Origin: Candidatus Polarisedimenticolia bacterium
Lineage (GTDB): Bacteria; Acidobacteriota; Polarisedimenticolia; Gp22-AA2
Assembly (NCBI GenBank): GCA_036001465.1
Contig: DASYUH010000032.1
Span: 124,001 to 188,000, forward strand
Direction of reading: 5' to 3'
DNA: 64,000 bases
Shown here in pieces: positions 42,691 through 56,328 of this stretch. The position numbers and the translations under genes are program-made. The notes below the pieces were generated by a model, which saw only the letters and a program-made list of their open reading frames with translations, was not told where the DNA came from and searched no databases. Each line of letters opens with the position of its first letter. Position 1 is the first letter of the stretch.

Positions 42691-43386
42691 ATGCCCTCTG
42701 AAAATGCCGAAAGCCTGACGATCGATCTCCAGGACGGCCGGACCGTCTCCGGGCTTCTGCTGATGCCGCGCCAGCCGCTCGCCTGCCTGGCGCTCTCCCA
42801 TGGAGCGGGCGCCGGCATGACTCACCCCTTCCTCTCGGCCTTCGCCGCCGGGCTAGCCGAGCGAAGGATCGCCACGCTGCGCTATCAGTTCCCCTACATG
42901 GAGCGAGGCTCGAGGCGGCCGGATCCGCCCAAGCTCGCCCAGGCGACCGTCCGCGCCGCCCTCGTCCTGGCGCGGCGCCTTGTCCCGCGGATCCCGCTCT
43001 TTGCGGGAGGCAAGTCGTTCGGTGGCCGCATGACCTCCCAGGCGCAGGCCGAATCGCCGCTGCCCGGCGTCCGCGGTCTCGTCTTCCTGGGGTTTCCCTT
43101 GCATCCACCCGGACGTCCATCGGACGAGCGTGGCCGGCATCTCTTCGACGTGCAGGTCCCGATGCTCTTCCTGCAGGGAACGCGTGACGATTTCGGGAGC
43201 CTGCCTCTGCTGCGGCCCCTGATCGAGCGGCTCGGCGCGCGCGCGACGCTCGAGGCCGTCGCAGACGCGGATCACTCCTTCCACGTTCCCGCCCGAACCG
43301 GACGCAGCAACGAAGAGGTCTTCACCGGGATGCTGGAGAGGCTGGTCGCCTGGATGGAGACCGTCGATAAGAGCACGCAACCATGA
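42691..43386 (+). CDS. Alpha/beta-hydrolase of the KANL3/Tex30 type
   Basis: A 231-residue cytoplasmic hydrolase. Fold markers are CLALSHGAGAGMTHPFL (oxyanion-loop His-Gly), LRYQFPYMERGSRRPDPP, the nucleophile elbow FAGGKSFGGRMTSQA (Ser in Gly-x-Ser-x-Gly), VPMLFLQGTRDDFGS with the Asp, and VADADHSFHVPARTG with the catalytic His. The bacterial members are uncharacterised esterases or thioesterases. There is no lid domain and no signal peptide. It is divergent from the TMTC-like gene across 70 bases. The C terminus overlaps no other intact gene. Confidence 0.87.
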   Translation: MPSENAESLTIDLQDGRTVSGLLLMPRQPLACLALSHGAGAGMTHPFLSAFAAGLAERRIATLRYQFPYMERGSRRPDPPKLAQATVRAALVLARRLVPRIPLFAGGKSFGGRMTSQAQAESPLPGVRGLVFLGFPLHPPGRPSDERGRHLFDVQVPMLFLQGTRDDFGSLPLLRPLIERLGARATLEAVADADHSFHVPARTGRSNEEVFTGMLERLVAWMETVDKSTQP

Positions 43387-43469
43387 AAGCCAGCTCGTCG
43401 CGGTAGACCTCGGCCGTCCGGCGCCGCGCCTGGCGTGGCCCACGCCAAGTGGCACTTCGTTGGGCACCG

Positions 43470-43803
43470 CGGCGACTCGCCTCGAATCGGGGGACCACGC
43501 GAACGCATCGTCCACCGAGGAATCTCTGACCTCGGTGAGGCGGACCGCGGCGGGCAGGGTGGTTTCTCCCGGCCGGGGGACCGGGATGATCCAGAGGCTC
43601 GCCGAGGTGGATCGGTCGTTCCCCACGATGTGGAACTCGGGAGTCTCGGGCAGGAGCTCCCGGCGCTCCACCATCTCCCCCGCGGCAAAGGCGATCCGTG
43701 TTCCGTCGGGCGCCCACTTGAAGCCATCGACGCCGTTCGGCGCACTGGTGAGGCGGGTCACCGCTCCGCCGGCCGTGGAGACCATGTGCGCCGGGTTGGC
43801 ACG
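43470..43803 (-). pseudogene. Remnant of a WD40-like/TolB-type propeller protein (perhaps S9 peptidase N-terminal domain)
   Basis: One frame reads AHMVSTAGGAVTRLTSAPNG, VDGFKWAPDGTRIAFAAGEM, TSASLWIIPVPRPGETTLPA and DAFAWSPDSRRVA. These are two blades of the Trp-(A/S)-Pro-Asp-Gly PD40 propeller common to TolB and to the N-terminal half of S9 peptidases. No start, signal or further blades exist. Downstream of SRRVA the frame loses its pattern before reaching the alpha/beta hydrolase gene, which lies on the other strand. It is a broken internal gene fragment. Confidence 0.6.
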
Positions 43804-43812
43804 TCTGCAACC

Positions 43813-44319
43813 ATGTGGATTGGGAGAACAACTTCGGCGCGGTGCAACCGAGCTCCGTTGCTCCCGCACGAGAATCCCGACGGGCCCGCGGACGACGTTC
43901 CGGCCACATGGCTGAGCACCGCGTGGCAGGGAACCCCCGTCGGCCAGAGCGATTACCTGTTCTTGGAGATACAGCCGATAGGGACTCCACCCGTTCGGTA
44001 CTGTTTTTCTGGAGCTGGCTCGATTGTGTCCAACTACCTCGAGTACTCGCAGACAGGCGGATCCTTCTTCGATGGCAGCTCCCAGAAATGGTCGAGGAGT
44101 GCGGGAAGTGCCTGGAGTGACTGCCCGTTTGCGCTTACGCACAGATATGGATTCATGTGCTCGAATGCCGGTTCCTGGTGCATCAACGTCGAGGTCAACA
44201 TCACCTTCTTGGGCATTGCGCCCGCCATGGACGGCTCGGGAGAGATCATTTTTGCCTCCTCCCCCACCACCCTCCGGTTGCGCGTCGCTCCGGCCCACCT
44301 GAGCGCCTGCGGTTTCTGA
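43813..44319 (+). CDS. Possible fragmentary secreted-type protein of unknown family
   Basis: From about 43870 the frame has convincing protein texture and lower GC than its neighbours: SDYLFLEIQPIGTPPVRYCF, IVSNYLEYSQTGGSFFDGSS, SAWSDCPFALTHRYGFMCSN, SWCINVEVNITFLGIAP and a stop after LSACGF. The first 20 codons after ATG 43813 look non-coding, and another frame is more protein-like there (DWENNFGAVQPSSVAP), so a frameshift near 43865 is likely. Four Cys and aromatic-rich strands suggest an extracellular beta domain. There is no ribosome site and no signal peptide. It is probably the 3' part of a lost gene. Confidence 0.35.
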   Translation: MWIGRTTSARCNRAPLLPHENPDGPADDVPATWLSTAWQGTPVGQSDYLFLEIQPIGTPPVRYCFSGAGSIVSNYLEYSQTGGSFFDGSSQKWSRSAGSAWSDCPFALTHRYGFMCSNAGSWCINVEVNITFLGIAPAMDGSGEIIFASSPTTLRLRVAPAHLSACGF

Positions 44320-44627
44320 ATTCGTCGCAGCCTATTCCCACCCGATCGTGTCGGGCCGATTGGTCACGTGCGCAGCCACCTCGGCTGCTCTCGCCGGCCG
44401 CCACGCGATCTCAAGGCTGATAAGGCGCGCTGACCACCGTCGTCGATAGGGCCGACGTCGCGGCCAACATGACCGACAACCTGTCCGGGGTGGACACCGT
44501 CGTGTTCGACGGAGTCCATGGACACCTTCGGGCTGAAGACACTCAAGAAGCACTGACACCGAACGTCCCGCGCAACGAGGAAGGACGGCTCGCCTGAGCC
44601 GGTTCTTTTCGCACAGGAGAAAACTGC
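44320..44627. other. Non-coding stretch, no recognisable gene
   Basis: About 300 bases after the fragmentary frame show no recognisable protein on either strand. Short frames around 44420-44600 have some codon texture but match nothing I know. The promoter of the ECF sigma factor follows immediately. Confidence 0.4.
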
Positions 44628-44656
44628 TTGACGATGCTGCGCGCGCCGCGTATTTT
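44628..44656 (+). promoter_or_regulatory. Candidate sigma-70 promoter of the ECF sigma factor gene
   Basis: TTGACG (44628-44633) and TATTTT (44651-44656) are separated by exactly 17 bp, five and four of six bases matching the consensus respectively. It lies about 180 bp before the ATG at 44836, leaving a long 5' leader that holds the inverted repeat at 44669-44711. Confidence 0.5.
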
Positions 44657-44668
44657 GTCGCCACCCGG

Positions 44669-44711
44669 CGTTGTCCGCGTGGGAATCGATCCCATCGGTT
44701 GTCGGACAACG
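44669..44711. repeat. Nested inverted repeat in the leader of the ECF sigma gene
   Basis: CGTTGTCCG (44669-44677) is repeated in inverse as CGGACAACG (44703-44711), a perfect 9-bp pair. Inside it lies a second pair, TGGGA/TCCCA, around ATCGA. It starts 13 bases after the candidate -10 box, so it could be an operator or an RNA hairpin in the leader. Confidence 0.5.
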
Positions 44712-44835
44712 GGTCTGACTCAAAGCACCTTCACGAAACGCGCGGCGCCTTTCGATCAAGAGGCGGCACACCCGGGCATCGTCTTTTGCCCCTCCCCATC
44801 GCCAGGCGGGCTGGTCGCTCGTCCACGGGTGGACC

Positions 44836-45462
44836 ATGCCCACGTGTGCCGATCCGTCAAGAGACAACCTCATCCAAACCGGCCTGAAGCGCGGCGATCC
44901 CGCTGCCGTCCGAGTCGTCCTGAGGTGGATTCGCTCGATTCTCGCTTTGCCCCGGTATACCCGTCTCCGCTCGGAAAAAGAAGACATGGAACAGGAGGTG
45001 ATGCTGCGGATTCTCGATTCCCTTCGCCGCGAGCATTTCGATCCTTCGCGCGATCTGCGCGTTTACATCCAGGCCATCACCATGTACACGGCCCGGCAGA
45101 CACTGTCGCGCAAGTCGTCGCTGCAGGGCCGCCCTCAAGACGCGGGGGCTCTCCTCGATCGGGCTGTCGGTGAGCCCACCGTGACCTTGCAAACGGTGAG
45201 GCTCGCGCTCCAGGGGATGTCCCCCGCGTGCAGGGACCTGATCCGATATTTCTATTTTGAGGAGCATAGTTACGGCGAGATCGCCCGCATTCTCGACATC
45301 CCGATTGGCACGGTGAAATCTCGCCTGTCGCGATGCCGTCTCGAGATGCGGCGGGCGATCACGGCCGCATCGTACGGTCTCCGCACGCAGGACCGGCGCG
45401 CGACTCCAAAGCGCACGGCGGTCACGCTCGGGACGCGCCACGTTCCGCTGCGACGGCATTGA
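44836..45462 (+). CDS. ECF-family RNA polymerase sigma factor of the Cys-rich peptide cluster
   Basis: A 208-residue sigma factor. Region 2 spans about residues 40-95 (RSEKEDMEQEVMLRILDSLR, RDLRVYIQAITMYTARQTLS). Region 4 is at about 120-180 (LQGMSPACRDLIRYFYFEEH, YGEIARILDIPIGTVKSRLS), with the canonical Gly-Thr-Val-Lys-Ser-Arg recognition helix. It lacks a SnoaL-type C-terminal extension; the last 25 residues are basic and probably disordered. No anti-sigma gene adjoins it. Downstream in the same direction are the Cys-rich peptide, redoxin protein and aminopropyltransferase-like genes, so it may drive that group. ATG 44836 has only a weak GGGTGGA upstream. Confidence 0.85.
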   Translation: MPTCADPSRDNLIQTGLKRGDPAAVRVVLRWIRSILALPRYTRLRSEKEDMEQEVMLRILDSLRREHFDPSRDLRVYIQAITMYTARQTLSRKSSLQGRPQDAGALLDRAVGEPTVTLQTVRLALQGMSPACRDLIRYFYFEEHSYGEIARILDIPIGTVKSRLSRCRLEMRRAITAASYGLRTQDRRATPKRTAVTLGTRHVPLRRH

Positions 45463-45781
45463 CCGAATGACAAGGGAACCTTTTCCGACTGCTCGACAAT
45501 TGTTCTATTAGAAACACAGGATTCGTTCTCGCCCTCCCCGCATCTTCGGGCGCCCTGAAGGTGTGTCTCGGAGTGAAGACGGACCGTGAAATTGCCGGCG
45601 CAAGCCATTTATGAAGTCCAGACAGGCGCAATCGACCGCCTCTCCTGCGAGGCGGAGCGGGGACCGGACGGCTGCCGGCTCGCCGAATGTCCCGGGCCGG
45701 CGCGATCCCCTCCGTCGAGGTCGGCGACCTCCCGATGACGCTCTTTTTTTCTCCTAACACCTGCTCCGAGGAGGATAAACG
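45463..45781. other. Leader region of the Cys-rich peptide gene
   Basis: These 319 bases hold no gene. Two perfect small hairpins are visible: CCGCCTC/GAGGCGG at 45636-45655 and GAGGTC-GGC-GACCTC at 45717-45731. A run of seven T follows at 45744-45750. The stem-to-T distance of 12 bases is too long for a standard intrinsic terminator, but a regulatory leader is possible. GAGGAGGA at about 45769-45776 is a strong ribosome site for ATG 45782. I see no clear sigma-70 promoter, so an ECF-type promoter may be used. Confidence 0.45.
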
Positions 45782-46057
45782 ATGAGGAAGGCCCCAATCG
45801 TGTTAAGCCTGTTAGTTGCAGCCATCGGGGTTTTGGTCATGGTCAACGTGGCGACGGATACCACCGCCATTACCGCCAACGCCAACCGTGACGCCTCGGA
45901 TCCCTTCGTGACTCTTTCCGAGTTCGATACCTCGTTCAACCAGGCAGCCTGTACCAGGTGTAAGGCCACGATCCCGTGCGGGGAGACGTGTGAGAACCAG
46001 CCTCCGTGCAAGTGTAAGACGTGCAACGGCTCCTTCGACTGCTGGCGTCCTAACTGA
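45782..46057 (+). CDS. Short exported cysteine-rich peptide, unknown family
   Basis: A 91-residue precursor. Residues 4-29 form a signal peptide or membrane anchor (IVLSLLVAAIGVLVMVNVA). Residues 30-55 are a hydrophilic linker (DPFVTLSEFDTSFNQ). The last 35 residues carry eight Cys at 57, 60, 66, 70, 76, 78, 81 and 87: CTRCKATIPCGETC, then PPCKCKTCNGSFDCW. The even Cys number suits disulfides outside the cell or a metal-binding knuckle. The strong ribosome site, long leader and the hairpin just after the stop suggest high, separately tuned expression. The tripartite layout resembles a ribosomally made, modified or secreted peptide. I recognise no family; function unknown. Confidence 0.78.
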   Translation: MRKAPIVLSLLVAAIGVLVMVNVATDTTAITANANRDASDPFVTLSEFDTSFNQAACTRCKATIPCGETCENQPPCKCKTCNGSFDCWRPN

Positions 46058-46078
46058 AGGCGATTTTCGCACTTCGAC

Positions 46079-46114
46079 GAACCTGGGGACGGCCTTCCGG
46101 CCGTCCCCAGGTTC
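46079..46114 (+). terminator. Perfect 16-bp hairpin after the Cys-rich peptide gene
   Basis: Arms 46079-46094 and 46099-46114 are perfectly complementary around a TTCC loop; the core is GGGGACGGCC/GGCCGTCCCC. It begins 22 bases after the peptide stop and is followed by a poor T tract (CTCGGG), so it may act as a partial terminator or an mRNA 3' stabiliser, lowering expression of the genes downstream. Confidence 0.7.
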
Positions 46115-46136
46115 TCGGGAGGCTTTCACGTTTAGC

Positions 46137-47420
46137 TTGGCGCTGTCCCAACTCGGGCGCGGAACGATCCTCGTCGGGCTGACAACCCTCAGCATGTGCG
46201 CCCCGGGCTGCGTGGACCGCGAAGTCGGCCAGTACCGCTTTCACCGCGCTGTCGTGAATCTCGAATACGCCGCGGTCGGCATGAAGCCCGTCGAGCACGC
46301 CGTCCTGCACGATCGTGTCGGCCAGGACGGTGAGCTCTGGTCTGGCACGATCATGCGACGCCTCTCCGGCGATAGTCGCACCGACAGCCGCCATTACCTC
46401 CCGTTCCTGGCGCGATACACGCAAGGCCTGGCGCAGCAGGCGTGGTGGGATTCGGATCTCGACGGCAGCCTGGAGGATGAACACCCGGTCAACCTGACGG
46501 CCTACCGCTCCCCCGCCGGCGCCCGGTCGTTTCTCGCCGAATTCCATTGGCGTACCGGTCCCACCGGCGATGAACATGACATCCATCAGATGGTGCGCGT
46601 CGTCCTCGAGCCGCGCATCGCGATCGACACCAATCCCGTCTATCGCGTCCAGACGGTCTATGGAATGGTCGGTCGGGTCTACCTCGACGGTCGCCGCTGC
46701 CGGGCGGTTCTCTTCGACGGCAATGGCGACGGTTTGTACACGCACGATCCCCTCGACGGCATGTTCGTCGATCTGGATGGTGATCGGCATTTGAGCATCG
46801 ATCCATTCTCCCCGGAGTTCGGCTCATTCTCGTCCCAGTTTTCGATGGGCCACTATGTCTACGAAGCGACCGCCATCGATCCCGAGGGACGCGCCCTGAC
46901 GCTCAGGCGTCTCGATCTGGCACACGCAGTGCGACCGCCGATCGTAGGCGAGCTGGCGCCGGACGCGCCGTTCGAGGATGAGACCGGGCGCCGGACATTC
47001 CTCGACGACTATCGTGGCCGCCCCGTCGTGATCTATTTCTTCGCCATGTGGTGCGGCCAGGCGACGTCCAAAATAGGCGCCCTCAAGAGCCTGTACGCCC
47101 AGTACCGATCATCCGGTCTCGAGATCCTGATGGTTTCGTTCGACGCGGATCGCGCCGCCCTCGACACATTCCTGGCCGAGCATGCGATCACGTGGCCGAC
47201 ATCGTTCTCGGGCAAAGTACTCTGGAACGATCCGCTGGGACGCGCCTATAAGGTCCGGTATCCAGGCATCTTTTTCTTGATCGATACGAAGGGACGGCTG
47301 CACGGACAATACGAGGACACTCCGAAACTGGCAGACGCGGTCGCCGACGTCATCGAGCACAGGCCGGATGACGCTGTTCGCACCTTGACCCGCGCGTCGC
47401 CTCCGGATGGAGTCGACTGA
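46137..47420 (+). CDS. Envelope protein with C-terminal redoxin (TlpA/AhpC-like) domain
   Basis: About 427 residues. After a short hydrophobic N terminus with Cys residues (LVGLTTLSMCAPGC, possibly a lipoprotein signal), residues about 25-255 form a beta-rich domain with an EF-hand-like Asp loop (DGNGDGLYTHDPLDG, VDLDGDRHLSIDPF). The C-terminal 150 residues are a thioredoxin-fold redoxin: VIYFFAMWCGQATSKIG, LEILMVSFDADRAALDTFLA and YPGIFFLIDTKGRLHGQYED. The usual Trp-Cys-x-x-Cys is Trp-Cys-Gly-Gln-Ala, so only one redox Cys remains, and classical disulfide exchange is unlikely. The start is uncertain: TTG 46137 is chosen because it precedes the hydrophobic stretch, and ATG 46194 is an alternative. 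Confidence 0.72.
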   Translation: MALSQLGRGTILVGLTTLSMCAPGCVDREVGQYRFHRAVVNLEYAAVGMKPVEHAVLHDRVGQDGELWSGTIMRRLSGDSRTDSRHYLPFLARYTQGLAQQAWWDSDLDGSLEDEHPVNLTAYRSPAGARSFLAEFHWRTGPTGDEHDIHQMVRVVLEPRIAIDTNPVYRVQTVYGMVGRVYLDGRRCRAVLFDGNGDGLYTHDPLDGMFVDLDGDRHLSIDPFSPEFGSFSSQFSMGHYVYEATAIDPEGRALTLRRLDLAHAVRPPIVGELAPDAPFEDETGRRTFLDDYRGRPVVIYFFAMWCGQATSKIGALKSLYAQYRSSGLEILMVSFDADRAALDTFLAEHAITWPTSFSGKVLWNDPLGRAYKVRYPGIFFLIDTKGRLHGQYEDTPKLADAVADVIEHRPDDAVRTLTRASPPDGVD

Positions 47421-47455
47421 GTCCCTTCGCCGTCTACATTCCTGCGGACGAGTTG

Positions 47456-50400
47456 ATGAGCCTCCCGATCCAACAGCATCCGCTACAGGCGGCCCCGCCT
47501 GCGCCGACTCGCCTCGTTTCGATCTGCCTCTTCTTGTCGGGAGCGAGCGGGCTGATTTATGAGGTGTCATGGGCGCGCGCTCTCGAGCTGCTGTTCGGCT
47601 CGACGACATACGCGGTGGCAACGGTCCTCGCCGCTTTCATGGGGGGACTCGCGCTCGGCTCCTGGTGGATGGGAGCGCGCGCACACACATTCGTCCGGCT
47701 CGGACCCCTGGGACTCTACGCGGCGCTCGAAACGGCGCTTGCCGTCGTCGCGTCGTGCGTGCCCGTTCTCTTGAAGGCGCAGGGGGCGCTCGTGCGGACG
47801 CTTCCGCAATGGATTGGCGATTCGTTCGTCGCGACGAGCGCCGTGCGTCTCGTGCTCTGCTTTCTGCTGCTCCTTCTGCCCACGGCCCTGATGGGGGCCA
47901 CGCTTCCAGCGATCAGCAACCTCGTCGCACGCCGAGGAGAGGCGACCGGTCGCAGTGTCGGCGTGCTCTATGCCATCAATACGCTCGGCGGGGTGATGGG
48001 ATGCGCGGCGGCCGGTCTGCTGCTACTGCCCCGATTCGGCCTCCTGCGCACGCAGCTCGTGGCGGTGGGCATCAATCTCGGTGTCGGGTGTGTCGCCTTC
48101 TTGATGATGCGCCGGGGCCGGCGCTCAGCGAGCCTGCCCATGGGCCAGGCAGAGATGCGTGTCGACGATGTCGGAGCCGCGGCCACTTCGGTCGCCGACG
48201 GCCGGGGCGTGCGTGCGATCACGGGGCTGTCGATCGCCGCGTATGCGCTCTCTGGCCTCACCGCCATAGTGTACGAGGTGGCGTGGAACAGGCTGCTCGT
48301 CCTCGTGCTCGGATCTTCGACCTATGCGTACACCATCATGCTCGCCACCTTTCTCCTCGGACTGGGCGTGGGCGGCTGGATCGGGGCCCGCGTGCTGCAA
48401 CCGGGCGTCACGCCGCTGGTCGCCATCGGCCTCTGCCAGACCGTGGTGGCGATCTCCACGTGGGCAAGCCTGTTTCTGGTGGATGAGCTCCCCTTTTTCT
48501 ATGTCGTGGCGCTCGGCCACCTGCCCCCCTCCCCGCACGGCGTACTGGGAGTCCAATGGGGACTCGCCGCCGTGCTGATGGTGCTGCCGACGATGGGCCT
48601 GGGCGCCATGTTCCCGGCCATCGTCGGCGCTCTCGATCCCGAAGGCCTGCGCGCCTCTCGCACGGTCGGCCGGGCCATCGCCTGGAATACCTTGGGAGCC
48701 ATCCTCGGGTCGATCGCCGCCGGCTTCTGGCTGGTCCCCAGGCTCGGCACCGGCCCGACACTCCGTTCCGGAATTCTCGTCAACGCGATCGTGGCGATGA
48801 TCGTGTTCGTCGCGGCGCGGAGCGAGGCGGGGCCCGCGCTGCGTTTCGCCACGACACTGGCCCTGCTTGTCTTTGCCGCGAACGTGATGATCCTTGCGCC
48901 GCGCTGGCGTCCCGACATCCTGTCGAGCGGCGTGTTTCGTTACGCCAAGGAGTACCTTGGCCTGGATCGCGCCGCTTTTCGCCAGAAGGCTCGCACGCAC
49001 GCCGGCGATATCCTGATGTTCGAAGAGGGCCTCACGTGCACCGTCCAGGTCATCCGCACGACGCCGCTGCTCGCGCTGCAGATCAACGGCAAGCCCGACG
49101 CATCGGTGCCGTCCGGCCTGACCGATCCGTATGCGCGGACGATTCCCGCGGTTCTCGGGGATCTGCCGACGCAAGTGCTTATGGCTCACCTTCCTCTTAT
49201 GCTCGCGAAAACATCCGACCGCGTGTTGGTAGTCGGCCTGGGAAGCGGAGTGACGCTCGGTTCGGTGCTGAAGCACCCCGTACGGCACGTCGAGTGCATC
49301 GAGATCGAGGACGCGGTCGTGCGGGCGAGCCGTTTCTTCGATGCCCAAAGCGGATCGCCCCTTCTCGATCCACGGGTGCATCTCGTGCTGAACGATGCGA
49401 GGACCAGACTGGCGCTTCCGGGACCGGCTTTCGACGTCATCATTTCGGAACCCTCGAATCCGTGGACCGCCGGATCCGCATCGCTTTTTACCACCGATTT
49501 CTTCTCCATCGCTCGACGGCGGCTGAGCCCCGGAGGTGTGTTCGGCCAGTGGGTGCAGCTCTACGAGCTGGACGCCAAGGACCTCCTGACCCTGCTCCGC
49601 AGCTTCATCGCCGTTTTCCCGCACGCGCAGTTGTTTCGCGTAGGCGGCGACGCCATCATTCTCGGTAGCGACCGATCCTTTTCACTCGACATGCGCCGGA
49701 TACTCGTACGCGCCGGATCCGCGGTGCGCGCCGATCTCGCACGCGTCGGCGTCGACGGCCCCGAAGACATCGTGGCCCGTTGGTGGAACGGCGGCGAAGC
49801 GCTTCGCCGCGCAATACCGTCGGGCGATCTCAACACGGACGACAACATGCTGATTGAGTTCGTGGCGCCTCTGCGGGTGCTGGCGCGCGGGGTATCGGGC
49901 GCGAGCCTCGCCGACCCGGGGGCGCTGTTCCCGGACGGCGCGCACGCACTGGCCGAACACCTCCTCCTGGGCGATGCGGACAACAGGGAGCGTGCCGCCG
50001 TCTGGGCACGCATCGCCGCGGCACGTCTGGCGCTGCGCGACACCGACACGGCCCTCGCGTTCGCCGAGCGCTCGTTGGACGTCGAGGACACGGCCGCGGG
50101 GTGGCGCGTTTACGGCGACGCTTTGCGTGCCGCCGGACGGCCGGACGAGGCCCTGAACCGCTGGGAGGTCGCGGCGCGTCTGTATCCCACCGATGCGGGC
50201 CTGCAACGCGCTCTGGCGAACCTTTTCGAAGAGCGCGCGGACTGGCCGGCTCTGCGGCATCGCGCCGTTGAGCTGGCGAGGCTCGATCCATCGGACCGTC
50301 ACGCCCAATATCTTTTTGGGAAGGCCCTGCACCATCTCGGCGATAATCGTGGAGCATTGGAGGCGTTGAAGCCGCTTTGCGGATCCGCCGAGTCTTCGGG

Positions 50401-51064
50401 GACGAATCCGCCGGTCGATCCCTGCTCCGGCGATGATCCTGCCAATCCGGATCTCGGTCTGCTGTTCGGCTCGGTGTCGATCGGAAACGCCCTGTACGAC
50501 CAGGCGGTCGACTCGCTTCGATCCTACTTGCGCAACAAACCGTCAGACAAAGAGGCACGCGCTCTGCTCGTGGACGCTCTTCGCAGGCTGGGCCGCCTCG
50601 ACGAGGCCGAGGTCGAGTCCCGGCGACTCGTGCCCGACGCCTCGGAGAGGGCCACGGCCGCGCTTCTGGCCGGGAAGGAAGCCTGGCGGGCCGGCGATCT
50701 CGCTCAGACCCGCGACCGCGTCGAGGAGGCGTGGCAATTCAACCCCGAGGACGACTCGGTCGCCTTCACACTGGCCCGGATTCGGGCACGGTCCGGGGAC
50801 GTCGATGGCGCGATCGCCGCCGTCGAGCAGTTCCTCACGATGCAGGCGGACCATCCATGGGCCGTCGGCTATCTCGGCCAGTTGCTCGAGGAGACCGGCC
50901 ACGTCGACGCGGCGCGGCTGATGGCGACACGCTATCGGAGTCTGATGGGTGACGATTGGCAGCCCGTCGACCGCGACGCCGCTCCGTTGCCGCAGCGTGT
51001 GCCAAGTCTCGGCGTTTCTCGACCGCAATCCGATCCCCCGCCCGCTTCCCTCTCCCAGCGTTGA
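47456..51064 (+). CDS. Fused polytopic membrane/spermidine synthase-like protein with TPR tail
   Basis: A 1,202-residue protein. Residues 20-500 contain two sets of membrane helices, each opening with Leu-Ser-Gly-Ala-Ser-Gly-Leu-Ile-Tyr-Glu-Val-like signatures (FLSGASGLIYEVSWARALEL and YALSGLTAIVYEVAWNRLLV). Residues about 520-780 are a spermidine-synthase-like Rossmann domain: RVLVVGLGSGVTLGSVLKH, CIEIEDAVVRASRFFDAQ, and FDVIISEPSNPWTAGSASLF in the aminopropyl-acceptor region. Residues 830-1180 are TPR repeats. Fused spermidine synthases of this kind are common but unexplained; they may modify a membrane-side or exported substrate. It follows the redoxin gene after 35 bases. The start is ATG 47456; an adjacent TTG at 47453 is possible. 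Confidence 0.86.
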   Translation: MSLPIQQHPLQAAPPAPTRLVSICLFLSGASGLIYEVSWARALELLFGSTTYAVATVLAAFMGGLALGSWWMGARAHTFVRLGPLGLYAALETALAVVASCVPVLLKAQGALVRTLPQWIGDSFVATSAVRLVLCFLLLLLPTALMGATLPAISNLVARRGEATGRSVGVLYAINTLGGVMGCAAAGLLLLPRFGLLRTQLVAVGINLGVGCVAFLMMRRGRRSASLPMGQAEMRVDDVGAAATSVADGRGVRAITGLSIAAYALSGLTAIVYEVAWNRLLVLVLGSSTYAYTIMLATFLLGLGVGGWIGARVLQPGVTPLVAIGLCQTVVAISTWASLFLVDELPFFYVVALGHLPPSPHGVLGVQWGLAAVLMVLPTMGLGAMFPAIVGALDPEGLRASRTVGRAIAWNTLGAILGSIAAGFWLVPRLGTGPTLRSGILVNAIVAMIVFVAARSEAGPALRFATTLALLVFAANVMILAPRWRPDILSSGVFRYAKEYLGLDRAAFRQKARTHAGDILMFEEGLTCTVQVIRTTPLLALQINGKPDASVPSGLTDPYARTIPAVLGDLPTQVLMAHLPLMLAKTSDRVLVVGLGSGVTLGSVLKHPVRHVECIEIEDAVVRASRFFDAQSGSPLLDPRVHLVLNDARTRLALPGPAFDVIISEPSNPWTAGSASLFTTDFFSIARRRLSPGGVFGQWVQLYELDAKDLLTLLRSFIAVFPHAQLFRVGGDAIILGSDRSFSLDMRRILVRAGSAVRADLARVGVDGPEDIVARWWNGGEALRRAIPSGDLNTDDNMLIEFVAPLRVLARGVSGASLADPGALFPDGAHALAEHLLLGDADNRERAAVWARIAAARLALRDTDTALAFAERSLDVEDTAAGWRVYGDALRAAGRPDEALNRWEVAARLYPTDAGLQRALANLFEERADWPALRHRAVELARLDPSDRHAQYLFGKALHHLGDNRGALEALKPLCGSAESSGTNPPVDPCSGDDPANPDLGLLFGSVSIGNALYDQAVDSLRSYLRNKPSDKEARALLVDALRRLGRLDEAEVESRRLVPDASERATAALLAGKEAWRAGDLAQTRDRVEEAWQFNPEDDSVAFTLARIRARSGDVDGAIAAVEQFLTMQADHPWAVGYLGQLLEETGHVDAARLMATRYRSLMGDDWQPVDRDAAPLPQRVPSLGVSRPQSDPPPASLSQR

Positions 51065-52670: not shown

Positions 52671-53540
52671 CTACTTCTTGGCGGTCTTCTTCGCGGGAGC
52701 CTCGCTCTCCTGGGCGCGCTTGGGCGGCTTGCGTTCCTCGGCCTGGGGCTGCCGCGCCTTCGCGGAGGCCTTCTTCTCCAGGCTGGCGCGCAGCGCCTCC
52801 ATGAGGTCGATGACCTGCGCGCCGCCCTCGGGCGCCTCGGCCATGGTGATCTCCTGCCCCTCTACCTTCTTCTGGATCGCCGCCTCGATGCGCGTGCGCA
52901 CCTCGTCGACGTACGGGGCGGGGTCGAAGGCCTCGGACGACTGCTGCTCGATCAGCTGCTGCGCCAGCTTGAGCTCGGCGTCCTTCACCTCGCCCTTGGG
53001 AATCTCGATCTCCTGGAGCGACCTCACCTCGCCGGCGTAAAGCAGCTGCTGCATGACCAGGCCGTCCGCCACCGGGCGGATCATCACGATGTACTGCTTG
53101 CCGCGCGCCCCCCAGCGTCCGATGGCGCAGCGCTTCGACTCGCGCAGCGCCCTGGCGAAGAGCGCGTACGGCTTCGCCCCGCCCTTGTCGGGCGCGAGGT
53201 AATAGGCCTTGTCGAAGTGCACCGGGTCGATCGAGGCGATCGGGACGAACTCGGCGATCTCGGCGCTGTGCGTCCCCGCCTCCTCCACGGCCTTCAGCTC
53301 CTCGGGAGAGAACATCACGTACTGGTCCTTGGCGAACTCGTACCCCTTCACCATGTCCTCGCGCGGGACCACCACCTCTTCCTTGGCGCAGAGGTACTGC
53401 TGCTTCAGCCGCGACCCGCATCCCTTGTGCAGGAGATTGAAAGAGATCGCGTGGCTCGCCTCCGTGGCGGAGAAGAGCTTCACCGGAATCGAAACGAGTC
53501 CAAAGGAGACGGTCAGCGACGCGATGGCCCGTGGTGCCAT
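52671..53540 (-). CDS. ku: Ku DNA-end-binding protein
   Basis: A 289-residue bacterial Ku, the homodimeric ring that loads on double-strand ends and recruits LigD for non-homologous end joining. Family segments: ASLTVSFGLVSIPVKLFSAT at the N terminus, LHKGCGSRLKQQYLCAKEE, VKGYEFAKDQYVMFSPEELK, HFDKAYYLAPDKGGAKPYAL, and LMEALRASLEKK before a Lys/Pro-rich tail (KPPKRAQESEAPAKKTAKK) that is typically needed for DNA threading or ligase stimulation. It lies 13 bases downstream of ligD in the same operon. ATG 53540 begins at the conserved MAPRAIASL. Confidence 0.96.
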   Translation of the reverse strand: MAPRAIASLTVSFGLVSIPVKLFSATEASHAISFNLLHKGCGSRLKQQYLCAKEEVVVPREDMVKGYEFAKDQYVMFSPEELKAVEEAGTHSAEIAEFVPIASIDPVHFDKAYYLAPDKGGAKPYALFARALRESKRCAIGRWGARGKQYIVMIRPVADGLVMQQLLYAGEVRSLQEIEIPKGEVKDAELKLAQQLIEQQSSEAFDPAPYVDEVRTRIEAAIQKKVEGQEITMAEAPEGGAQVIDLMEALRASLEKKASAKARQPQAEERKPPKRAQESEAPAKKTAKK

Positions 53541-53553
53541 TCTTCCCTCCGGC

Positions 53554-56328
53554 TCAAGTCGTGCGGTTCAGCAGACGCTCCAGATCCTGCTTGCTCTTCA
53601 GCGCGTCCCGCCAGCGATCGCCGGTTTCCGCCAGGCGCTCGGCGGCGTTGGCGATCCGGAAGTCGAGCGGGTGCGCGCCCGCGAGCTCGTCCCACGTCAG
53701 CGGCATCGACACCGGGGCGCCGGCGGCGCCGCGTGGCGAATAGGCCACGTTCAGCGTCTTGCCGCGGACGTTCATATTGTAGTCCAGGAAGATCTTCCCG
53801 GTGCGCTTCGGCACGCTCCACTCCATCGTGATGTCCTTCGGGTGCTTGCGCATCAGGTGCCGCCCGACCAGCTCGCAGACCTCGCGGGCCTTGTCGAACC
53901 CGAGCGTGCGCCGGATCGGCACGAAGACGTGCAGCCCCGTCTTCCCCGAGGTCTTGACGATCGCCTCGAGCGACATGCTCTGAAGCAGCTCGCGCAGCCT
54001 GAACGCCACTTCCTTCCCCTTCTCGAACGCCGCCGTGTTCAGCTCCGGCTCGTCGCCGGGCGCTTCCTTGCCTGAATATATGTAGGGGTCGAGGTCGAAA
54101 ACAAGGTAGTCGGGACAGTCCAGCACCGAGGCCTCCAGGGCCTCGAGCGACGAGGCGTATTCGGTGCCCCGGCCCTGGGCGTCCGGCCCCGGCCTGGCGC
54201 GCGAATGCCAGACGTGGAATTCGAGCGTCCCCAGCTGGGCCAGCCACAGGAGCGTCGGCAGGTTGTTGCACAGGAGATAGTCGTGCTTCTCGTCCTTGTG
54301 CTCGGAGAAGACGGTGATCGTCTCGACGAACTCCGGCCGCTCCTGGTCCCAGTGCTTCTGGAAGAAGCGGTGCCCCTGGATCCCCTCCGGCATGCGGATC
54401 ATGGTCAGCGGGCGGTCTGCGAGGTGCCTCAGGATGTGCGGCGACACCTGCGCCAGATAGCGCAGCAGGTCGCGCTTGGTCATCGCCGGCTGCTGCAGCG
54501 CCTGATCGGCGGGCCAGTAGACCTTGTCGAGATGCGTGAGGCGGATGCGGTGCGGCCCGACGACGAGCGGGAAGTCCTTCCTGCTGCTCGCGAGCTGCGC
54601 CACGATCCGGTCGATCTCGTCCGTCGCCCCCTCGCCCGCTGCCTTGGACCCTGCGGGACCCGCCTGCGCCCCGGAGGCCGCAGCCCCCGACACCCGGGCC
54701 CCTCGCACGTCCCGCGCTTTCACGTCCTTCGCCTTCAGGTCGTCGCGCAGGCGCAGGAAGACCGGCGCGCGCAGGTGGCCGTCCTTGGTCCATGAGTGGA
54801 ACTTGACCTCGGCCACCACCTTCGGCTCCACCCAGGTGGTCGGCTTCGGCAGGTCGGGCTTTTCGTCGAACGGGCAGGTCTTCCGCTCGAGCGGCTCGAG
54901 CCTGGCCTTCACCTGTGCCACGGAGCGCTCGTCGAAGCCCGATCCGACGTGCGACGCGAAGCGGAGTTTCTTCTTGTCCCAGTACCCGACGAGGATCGCC
55001 CCGAGCGACGCGCGCGATCCCTTCCCGCGCGTGTAGCCTCCGATGACGAAGTCCGCGCTGCGCGTCGGCTTCACCTTCAGCCACGACCCCGAGCGCCTGC
55101 CCGCCTCGTAGCGGCTCTCCTTGCGCTTGCCGATGACCCCTTCGAAGCCGCTCTGAAGCGCCGCTTCGTGCAGGGCGATGCCGTCGTCGGAGGCGTGCAC
55201 CAGCTGCACGCGCGGCGTGGGCAGGAGACACTGCGAGAGATAGCGCCGCCGATCGCGGTACGGCGCCTTGCGCAGGTCGACGCCGGCGAAATAGAGCAGA
55301 TCGAAGCAAAACAGCACGACCGGCACGCTCTGCTCCGCCGCCTTCAGCTCGGCCGCGGTCTTCAGCTGGGCGCGGTTCTGCAGCGCGTTGAAGGAGGGCC
55401 TGCCGGCGGCATCGAACGCCACGATCTCGCCGTCCAGGATCATGCGCCCCGCCGCCTGCTTCACCAGCTCTTCGACCAGTCCCGGAAATGTCGGCGCCAG
55501 CTCCAGCCCGCGGCGCGAGCGCAGCCTCACCTCCTTGCCGTCGAGGAAGGCGAGCACCCGGTAGCCGTCGAGCTTCGGCTCCCACATCCAGTCGGGATGG
55601 CTGAACGCCGCCTCGCCGATCTCGGCGTGCATCGGCTCGAGCTTCTCAGGCATCGGCTCGATGTCGCCCATGGGAACGAGCCGGGTCGCCGGAATGCGGT
55701 GCGCCGGCACGACCTTCATCTCTTCGACCGCGGCGCCCGAGAGCACCGAGCGGTTCCGTTCCGTGACGTCGCCGGCAGCCGAGCCGGCCGTCGTGGCGAA
55801 CCTGTCCCTGTGCTTGATCAGCAGCCAGTTCTTCGGGTCCTTGGTGCGCACCAGCGCGAACGAGCCCTTCACCTTCTCACCGCGCAGGGTGACGCTCAGC
55901 TTCCCCTTCCCGATCCCTTCCCTCGTGCGCTTCTCCGCCTGCTCACGGGCGTCGAACCAGGTCCCCCCCTCGTCCGGCGAGTAGACGCCGCAGTCCCAGA
56001 CGATCACCTCTCCCGCCCCGTACTGGCCGGGGGGTATGATCCCCTCGAACGACGCATAATCGTAGGGATGATCCTCGACCTGGACCGCGAGGCGCTTCTC
56101 ACCCGGGTCGAGCGACGGCCCCTTGGGGCAGGCCCAGGATTTCAGGACGCCGTCGCACTCGAGCCGCACGTCATAATGAAGCTGCCGGGCCGCATGCTTC
56201 TGGATCACGAAGAGGAGCGGCCCGCTCCGCTGGGCCACCGCAGGCGGCGGCTCGGGCGTGGCGTCGAAAGCCCGCTTGGAGGCGTACTCGTCGAGCGGCG
56301 AGGTCCCGGGAGTGGAGGGCGGCTTCAC
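53554..56328 (-). CDS. ligD: ATP-dependent DNA ligase D (phosphoesterase-ligase-polymerase)
   Basis: A 924-residue multifunctional NHEJ ligase. The 3'-phosphoesterase is at about residues 35-165 (FVIQKHAARQLHYDVRLE with His45, His51 and Asp53; VEDHPYDYASFEG with His87). The ligase is at about 225-530 with adenylation Lys252 in EPKLDGYR, IGKRKESRYEAGRRSGSWLK and DFVIGGYTRGKGSRASLGAI. The AEP-type polymerase is at about 590-900 (LVFDLDPYIYSGKEAPG with the metal Asp pair, AIVKTSGKTGLHVFVPIRRT, VAYSPRGAAGAPVSMPLTWD). Domain order is PE-LIG-POL, as in several non-Pseudomonas bacteria. It is first in the ligD-ku operon. A DUF72 5' remnant begins three bases upstream on the other strand. Confidence 0.95.
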   Translation of the reverse strand: MKPPSTPGTSPLDEYASKRAFDATPEPPPAVAQRSGPLLFVIQKHAARQLHYDVRLECDGVLKSWACPKGPSLDPGEKRLAVQVEDHPYDYASFEGIIPPGQYGAGEVIVWDCGVYSPDEGGTWFDAREQAEKRTREGIGKGKLSVTLRGEKVKGSFALVRTKDPKNWLLIKHRDRFATTAGSAAGDVTERNRSVLSGAAVEEMKVVPAHRIPATRLVPMGDIEPMPEKLEPMHAEIGEAAFSHPDWMWEPKLDGYRVLAFLDGKEVRLRSRRGLELAPTFPGLVEELVKQAAGRMILDGEIVAFDAAGRPSFNALQNRAQLKTAAELKAAEQSVPVVLFCFDLLYFAGVDLRKAPYRDRRRYLSQCLLPTPRVQLVHASDDGIALHEAALQSGFEGVIGKRKESRYEAGRRSGSWLKVKPTRSADFVIGGYTRGKGSRASLGAILVGYWDKKKLRFASHVGSGFDERSVAQVKARLEPLERKTCPFDEKPDLPKPTTWVEPKVVAEVKFHSWTKDGHLRAPVFLRLRDDLKAKDVKARDVRGARVSGAAASGAQAGPAGSKAAGEGATDEIDRIVAQLASSRKDFPLVVGPHRIRLTHLDKVYWPADQALQQPAMTKRDLLRYLAQVSPHILRHLADRPLTMIRMPEGIQGHRFFQKHWDQERPEFVETITVFSEHKDEKHDYLLCNNLPTLLWLAQLGTLEFHVWHSRARPGPDAQGRGTEYASSLEALEASVLDCPDYLVFDLDPYIYSGKEAPGDEPELNTAAFEKGKEVAFRLRELLQSMSLEAIVKTSGKTGLHVFVPIRRTLGFDKAREVCELVGRHLMRKHPKDITMEWSVPKRTGKIFLDYNMNVRGKTLNVAYSPRGAAGAPVSMPLTWDELAGAHPLDFRIANAAERLAETGDRWRDALKSKQDLERLLNRTT

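Follow-up and report, generated by a model that had tools for sequence, protein, structure and literature searches.

A gene for an exported, Cys-rich mini-protein and a gene for a ResA/TlpA-like envelope redoxin form a two-gene module in the 64-kb stretch of DNA analyzed here (the window). The two adjoin each other on the same strand in all four loci found to encode the N-terminal domain of this redoxin (the window, L030, L038 and L043), and the adjacency is kept although gene order differs, the redoxin coming first in L030. Because they are adjacent in all four loci, in two phyla, the peptide and the redoxin are functionally linked and probably work as a pair. Adjacency is the evidence for this link, and the chemistry that we propose for it is action of the redoxin on the cysteines of the peptide. 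The module is rare, with four loci known, and the searches of this analysis found no earlier description of it.

Four genes on one strand of the window

ORFs for a sigma factor, a peptide, a redoxin and a synthase follow one another on the + strand at 44836–51064, as a preliminary description of this DNA had reported. Domain calls, made with Pfam and NCBIfam profiles and their cut-offs, confirmed its sigma, redoxin, spermidine-synthase-like and TPR domains, and the 91-residue precursor with a signal and an eight-Cys core is also present. The features are as follows.

44836–45462, + strand: ECF sigma factor (TIGR02937, 59.5 bits against a cut-off of 42.9)
45768–45774, + strand: consensus Shine-Dalgarno sequence gaggagg of the peptide gene (read from the sequence)
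45782–46057, + strand: exported Cys-rich peptide precursor, 91 aa (ORF, alignment to homologues, export/Cys filter)
46079–46114, + strand: stem-loop between the peptide and redoxin genes, 16-bp stem and 4-nt loop (folding against background)
46137–47420, + strand: envelope redoxin, 427 aa, probable TTG start, export-type N-terminus (PF00578, 51.4 against 26)
46230–46931, + strand: N-terminal domain of the redoxin, without a Pfam family (profile searches, motifs)
47049–47066, + strand: active-site region of the redoxin, WCGQAT, with a single Cys (alignment of four redoxins)
47453–51064, + strand: fused MFS/spermidine synthase with a TPR tail, 1203 aa (NF037959, 110 bits against 40; PF01564; TPR repeats)

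Two further regions flank these genes. On the − strand at 43270–43800, a frame resembles part of a TolB/WD40-type repeat protein (for example FKWAPDGTRIAF and FAWSPDSRRVAA) and is perhaps a decayed gene beside the block. At 52671–56328, also on the − strand, two adjacent Ku- and LigD-like genes of bacterial end-joining repair were recognized by eye and are ordinary.

Recurrent pairing of peptide and redoxin

The redoxin search of 41 related genomes returned a single homologue of nearly full length, with 45% identity, from a different genus of the same family (L030), where a gene for an exported 8-Cys peptide lies directly downstream of the redoxin. The remaining two loci were found with a profile of the redoxin N-terminal domain, which is free of peptide information. 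One is in a contig titled Candidatus Eisenbacteria (VBOR01000111.1; L038), where the peptide gene ends 15 nt upstream of the redoxin frame, and the other turned up among 47 searched genomes of the Eisenbacteria phylum (L043), where the peptide stop and the redoxin start overlap as ATGA. The preliminary description had named recurrent pairing of the peptide with redoxin and fused spermidine synthase genes across genomes as support for its system, and the window and these three loci, in two phyla, provide it for the redoxin. The peptide homologues are listed below.

L030, 6723–7058, − strand: exported peptide, 111 aa, 8 Cys
L038, 4475–4789, same strand as the adjoining redoxin: peptide homologue, Eisenbacteria phylum
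L043, 443–757, same strand as the adjoining redoxin: peptide homologue, Eisenbacteria phylum

Matches to the N-terminal domain came from 2 of the 47 genomes searched in the Eisenbacteria phylum and from 2 of 396 sampled acidobacterial genomes, a search that scored the best 7 candidates per genome and may miss distant members. Viral contigs and 40 genomes of two further acidobacterial classes gave no match, and the plasmid search gave ResA only. This patchy spread over two phyla would fit horizontal transfer; apart from the window, the genomes concerned are metagenome assemblies.

The peptide family

The window precursor is composed of a signal-like hydrophobic N-terminus, a pro-region, a DPF motif (residues 40–42) and the eight-Cys core (residues 57–87). 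Alignment of the four peptides shows a common layout of signal-like N-terminus, DP[FY] before the core, GxxC, CxC and a core of 6–8 Cys. The core spacings are 2-5-3-5-1-2-5 in the window, as first described, and 2-6-8-6-1-2-5, 6-8-6-1-6 and 3-4-9-7-1-1-9 in the others. The 6-Cys member apparently lacks Cys 1 and Cys 7 of the 8-Cys pattern together, which suggests, without proving it, that these two pair as a disulfide.

The peptide has no Pfam or NCBIfam match above cut-off and no match among solved structures, and a single-sequence search of 60 related genomes and GTDB contigs returned no relative beyond the window. Within the class, the peptide profile matched only the two known peptides significantly; four weaker matches (E 0.03–1) were inspected and none was convincing as a relative. 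The AlphaFold model of the peptide (mean pLDDT 49.6) is too poor for use or for disulfide pairing. A possible likeness to Bacteroidales NVEALA peptides was dropped, as there was no Pfam match to such a family and no literature match for the term.

A filter for exported Cys-rich ORFs (45–160 aa, hydrophobic basic N-terminus, at least 5 Cys) passed a single ORF in the 64-kb window, the peptide, and one in each of the three other loci. In control DNA it passed 3 unique ORFs per about 400 kb, a rate that is approximate because some control loci were picked by weak peptide-profile matches and the control set partly overlaps. Two other ORFs were recorded. An exported protein with the Cys-rich stretch CTDRICGGCDGQCSRHGHVATHKGGHCAC matches the peptide profile weakly and has no adjacent redoxin (L078:5662–6069, − strand; G010:C145), and the control scan alone gave an ORF of 86 aa that has several Cys and a signal-like N-terminus (L051:1889–2149, + strand; G001:C56).

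The redoxin and its active site

The redoxin most likely starts at TTG 46137, which gives a hydrophobic N-terminus; a longer GTG frame runs into the peptide gene. Profile comparison identifies its C-terminal domain as a thioredoxin-like domain of the ResA/TlpA type (E 7e-19 against ResA chains), and a Foldseek search with a model of moderate confidence (mean pLDDT 67.5) gives a ResA/TlpA-like fold. The redoxin domain of the envelope protein in the preliminary description is confirmed; the active site, WCGQAT, has one Cys and lacks CxxC. In both acidobacterial redoxins (window and L030, the latter WCGNFT) the second active-site Cys is replaced, leaving the pattern WCGxxT, while the CxxC is present in L038 (WCGSC) and L043 (WCPRC).

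The N-terminal domain has no Pfam match above noise, and its invariant Asp/Gly motifs are similar to calcium-binding loops. The class also includes TlpA-like proteins that share the architecture of the redoxin (L031 and L034), with a profile–profile E of 1e-31 over 314 columns that include part of the N-terminal domain. These proteins, however, have no exported Cys-rich peptide nearby and are missed by the N-terminal domain profile. Since such relatives without a peptide exist, the peptide-linked redoxins look like a subfamily.

A stem-loop after the peptide gene

All four loci have a strong stem-loop, no more than about 90 nt from the stop codon of the peptide gene. Ranked against random windows of the same DNA, its stability is exceeded or equaled in 0/250, 1/250, 2/250 and 5/250 cases; in the window itself z is −5.2 and none of 250 background windows is as stable. 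In L030 a T-run follows the stem-loop, which resembles an intrinsic terminator. The L043 stem-loop falls inside the start of the redoxin gene, as does that of L038 if translation begins at the first start codon. We infer a transcript-level role, including an effect on the expression ratio: the stem-loop would yield more peptide than redoxin transcript, which would fit a substrate and its catalyst.

Proposed action of the redoxin on the peptide

With a redoxin carrying a subfamily-specific domain beside a Cys-rich peptide in every locus found, the most plausible reading of the redoxin is an enzyme that acts on the peptide. The pair may well be an envelope module, in which a dedicated TlpA/ResA-like redoxin acts on the cysteines of an exported mini-protein. 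Both proteins have export-type N-termini, so they would leave the cytoplasm and meet outside it. There the redoxin would promote oxidative folding, isomerization or resolution of the 3–4 core disulfides, its N-terminal domain may hold the peptide, and the product would be a disulfide-stabilized secreted peptide. Such action is proposed by analogy to PedC and BdbB of bacteriocin operons, and its direction is a proposal too. Against thiol/disulfide action, thiol-disulfide oxidoreductase activity normally requires the CxxC, which is missing from two of the four redoxins, and the single-Cys active site of the window redoxin could instead favor isomerization or a role as redox partner. The four loci have no transporter, protease or immunity gene in common.

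It is unlikely that the peptide is itself a redox partner, with its thiol cluster reducing or resolving a redoxin that would then be an envelope peroxidase or thiol reductase. In favor of this reading, the acidobacterial redoxins, with their one active-site Cys, accompany peptides with CxxC and CxCxxC, and the Eisenbacteria redoxins, which have CxxC, accompany peptides without it. However, the four sequences represent at most two independent lineages and the correlation may be phylogenetic; moreover, the redoxin resembles TlpA/ResA more than it does peroxiredoxins. Somewhat more doubtful is a split catalyst, in which a redoxin minus its resolving Cys would use the co-encoded exported mini-protein as resolving or reducing partner, making the two a new envelope redox couple.

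Equally doubtful is that the peptide is a metallothionein-like, metal-binding envelope protein whose thiols are kept reduced by the redoxin for metal loading. The peptide does contain clustered CxC and CxxC motifs, and proteins of the TlpA/ResA fold class are known that maintain thiols in the reduced state so that metal or haem can be inserted. Metallothioneins, however, are normally cytoplasmic, and no metal transporter or regulator was recognized beside the four loci. The 6-Cys homologue, too, lacks two Cys together, as expected if one disulfide was lost.

The sigma factor and the spermidine-synthase-like protein

The preliminary description had placed all four genes in one system, with the sigma factor in control and the synthase-like membrane protein modifying, exporting or sensing the peptide. 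We consider this improbable by a wide measure. The genes do share a strand, redoxin and synthase are 32 nt apart, and GC3 is 0.75–0.79 in all four against a window median of 0.87; GC falls to 0.62–0.64 at 44–48 kb of the window. As GC3 is low in each of them, the four may be one acquired island (44000–51064) whose genes arrived together. Joint acquisition is compatible with a shared function without showing one. However, the sigma and synthase genes are absent near the pair in all three other loci, and the pair is absent near their closest relatives.

The window sigma factor has an ECF sigma domain. Its gene lies 320 nt from the peptide gene, and the promoter assigned to it at 44628 is a single match against 1.0 in shuffles, a chance level and hence no evidence. 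Sigma relatives at 37–43% identity are followed in four of six loci (L085, L087, L089 and L090) by genes for anti-sigma-like, zinc-finger-like HxxxCxxC proteins and have no Cys-rich peptide nearby. No ORF for an adjacent anti-sigma factor follows 45462 in the window. In favor of the four-gene system, a more distant sigma factor in G005 (32%) lies beside a divergent gene for an exported 12-Cys peptide, a single case. This 107-aa peptide (L092:6491–6814, + strand; G005:C160) ends in CDCTSCGNP and may belong to a broader set of exported Cys-rich peptides in this family. The contig of the window also contains a paralogue of the sigma factor with an in-frame TGA in the match (G000:C32:197949–198503), a possible pseudogene or frame artefact.

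The synthase scores as a fused MFS/spermidine synthase by NF037959, and we judge its gene to lie outside the module. Such proteins are encoded by 11 of the 13 genomes searched, frequently with several copies per genome, and the closest relatives (49–51% identity) adjoin neither peptide nor redoxin. The only PADLOC match was that of the synthase domain to the mad2 model. Together, the sigma factor and the synthase look like unrelated neighbors of the pair. Of the downstream proteins that were to mature, export or sense the peptide, the redoxin has its link supported, over four loci, and the synthase-like protein does not. Homologues of the peptide without these neighbors, named beforehand as grounds for refutation, overturn the four-gene system and leave the two-gene system standing.

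Chance adjacency of a spurious small ORF is most improbable: although single-sequence searching gave no relative of this short peptide, the control rate places one passing ORF within 1.5 kb in about 2% of loci, making three more ~1e-5, and the pair is found in four of four loci with good ribosome-binding sites and alignable cores.

Comparison with known systems

The pair adds an exported Cys-rich peptide family without a Pfam match but with a built-in clue to its chemistry, in lineages known here mainly from metagenome-assembled genomes. Two genes are few enough for a direct test in a laboratory host, and what looked like a cluster of four genes should be cut back before others build on it.

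As in bacteriocin operons, an exported Cys-containing peptide is encoded beside an exported redoxin; a dedicated exporter and immunity gene, in contrast, were not recognized beside the pair in the four loci. PedC raises pediocin potency and has been proposed to form the pediocin disulfides (PMC4919988), and BdbB forms those of sublancin (PMC6391423). The pediocin PA-1 operon likewise encodes a short Cys-containing exported peptide with a secreted thioredoxin-fold protein, PedC (PMC4919988). However, PedC has CxxC, and pediocin, a 4-Cys peptide, comes with an ABC exporter and an immunity gene; the window pair has neither of these genes, its peptide has a Sec-type N-terminus and its redoxin an extra N-terminal domain. 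In the operon for sublancin 168 (BdbA/BdbB), too, a thiol-disulfide oxidoreductase is encoded with its peptide (PMC6391423), but this bacteriocin is glycosylated and has a dedicated transporter and glycosyltransferase, neither of which is present at the window pair. The ResA/TlpA oxidoreductases share the C-terminal redoxin domain by profile and predicted fold. Unlike them, the acidobacterial members are without the second active-site Cys, and the window redoxin has its extra N-terminal domain.
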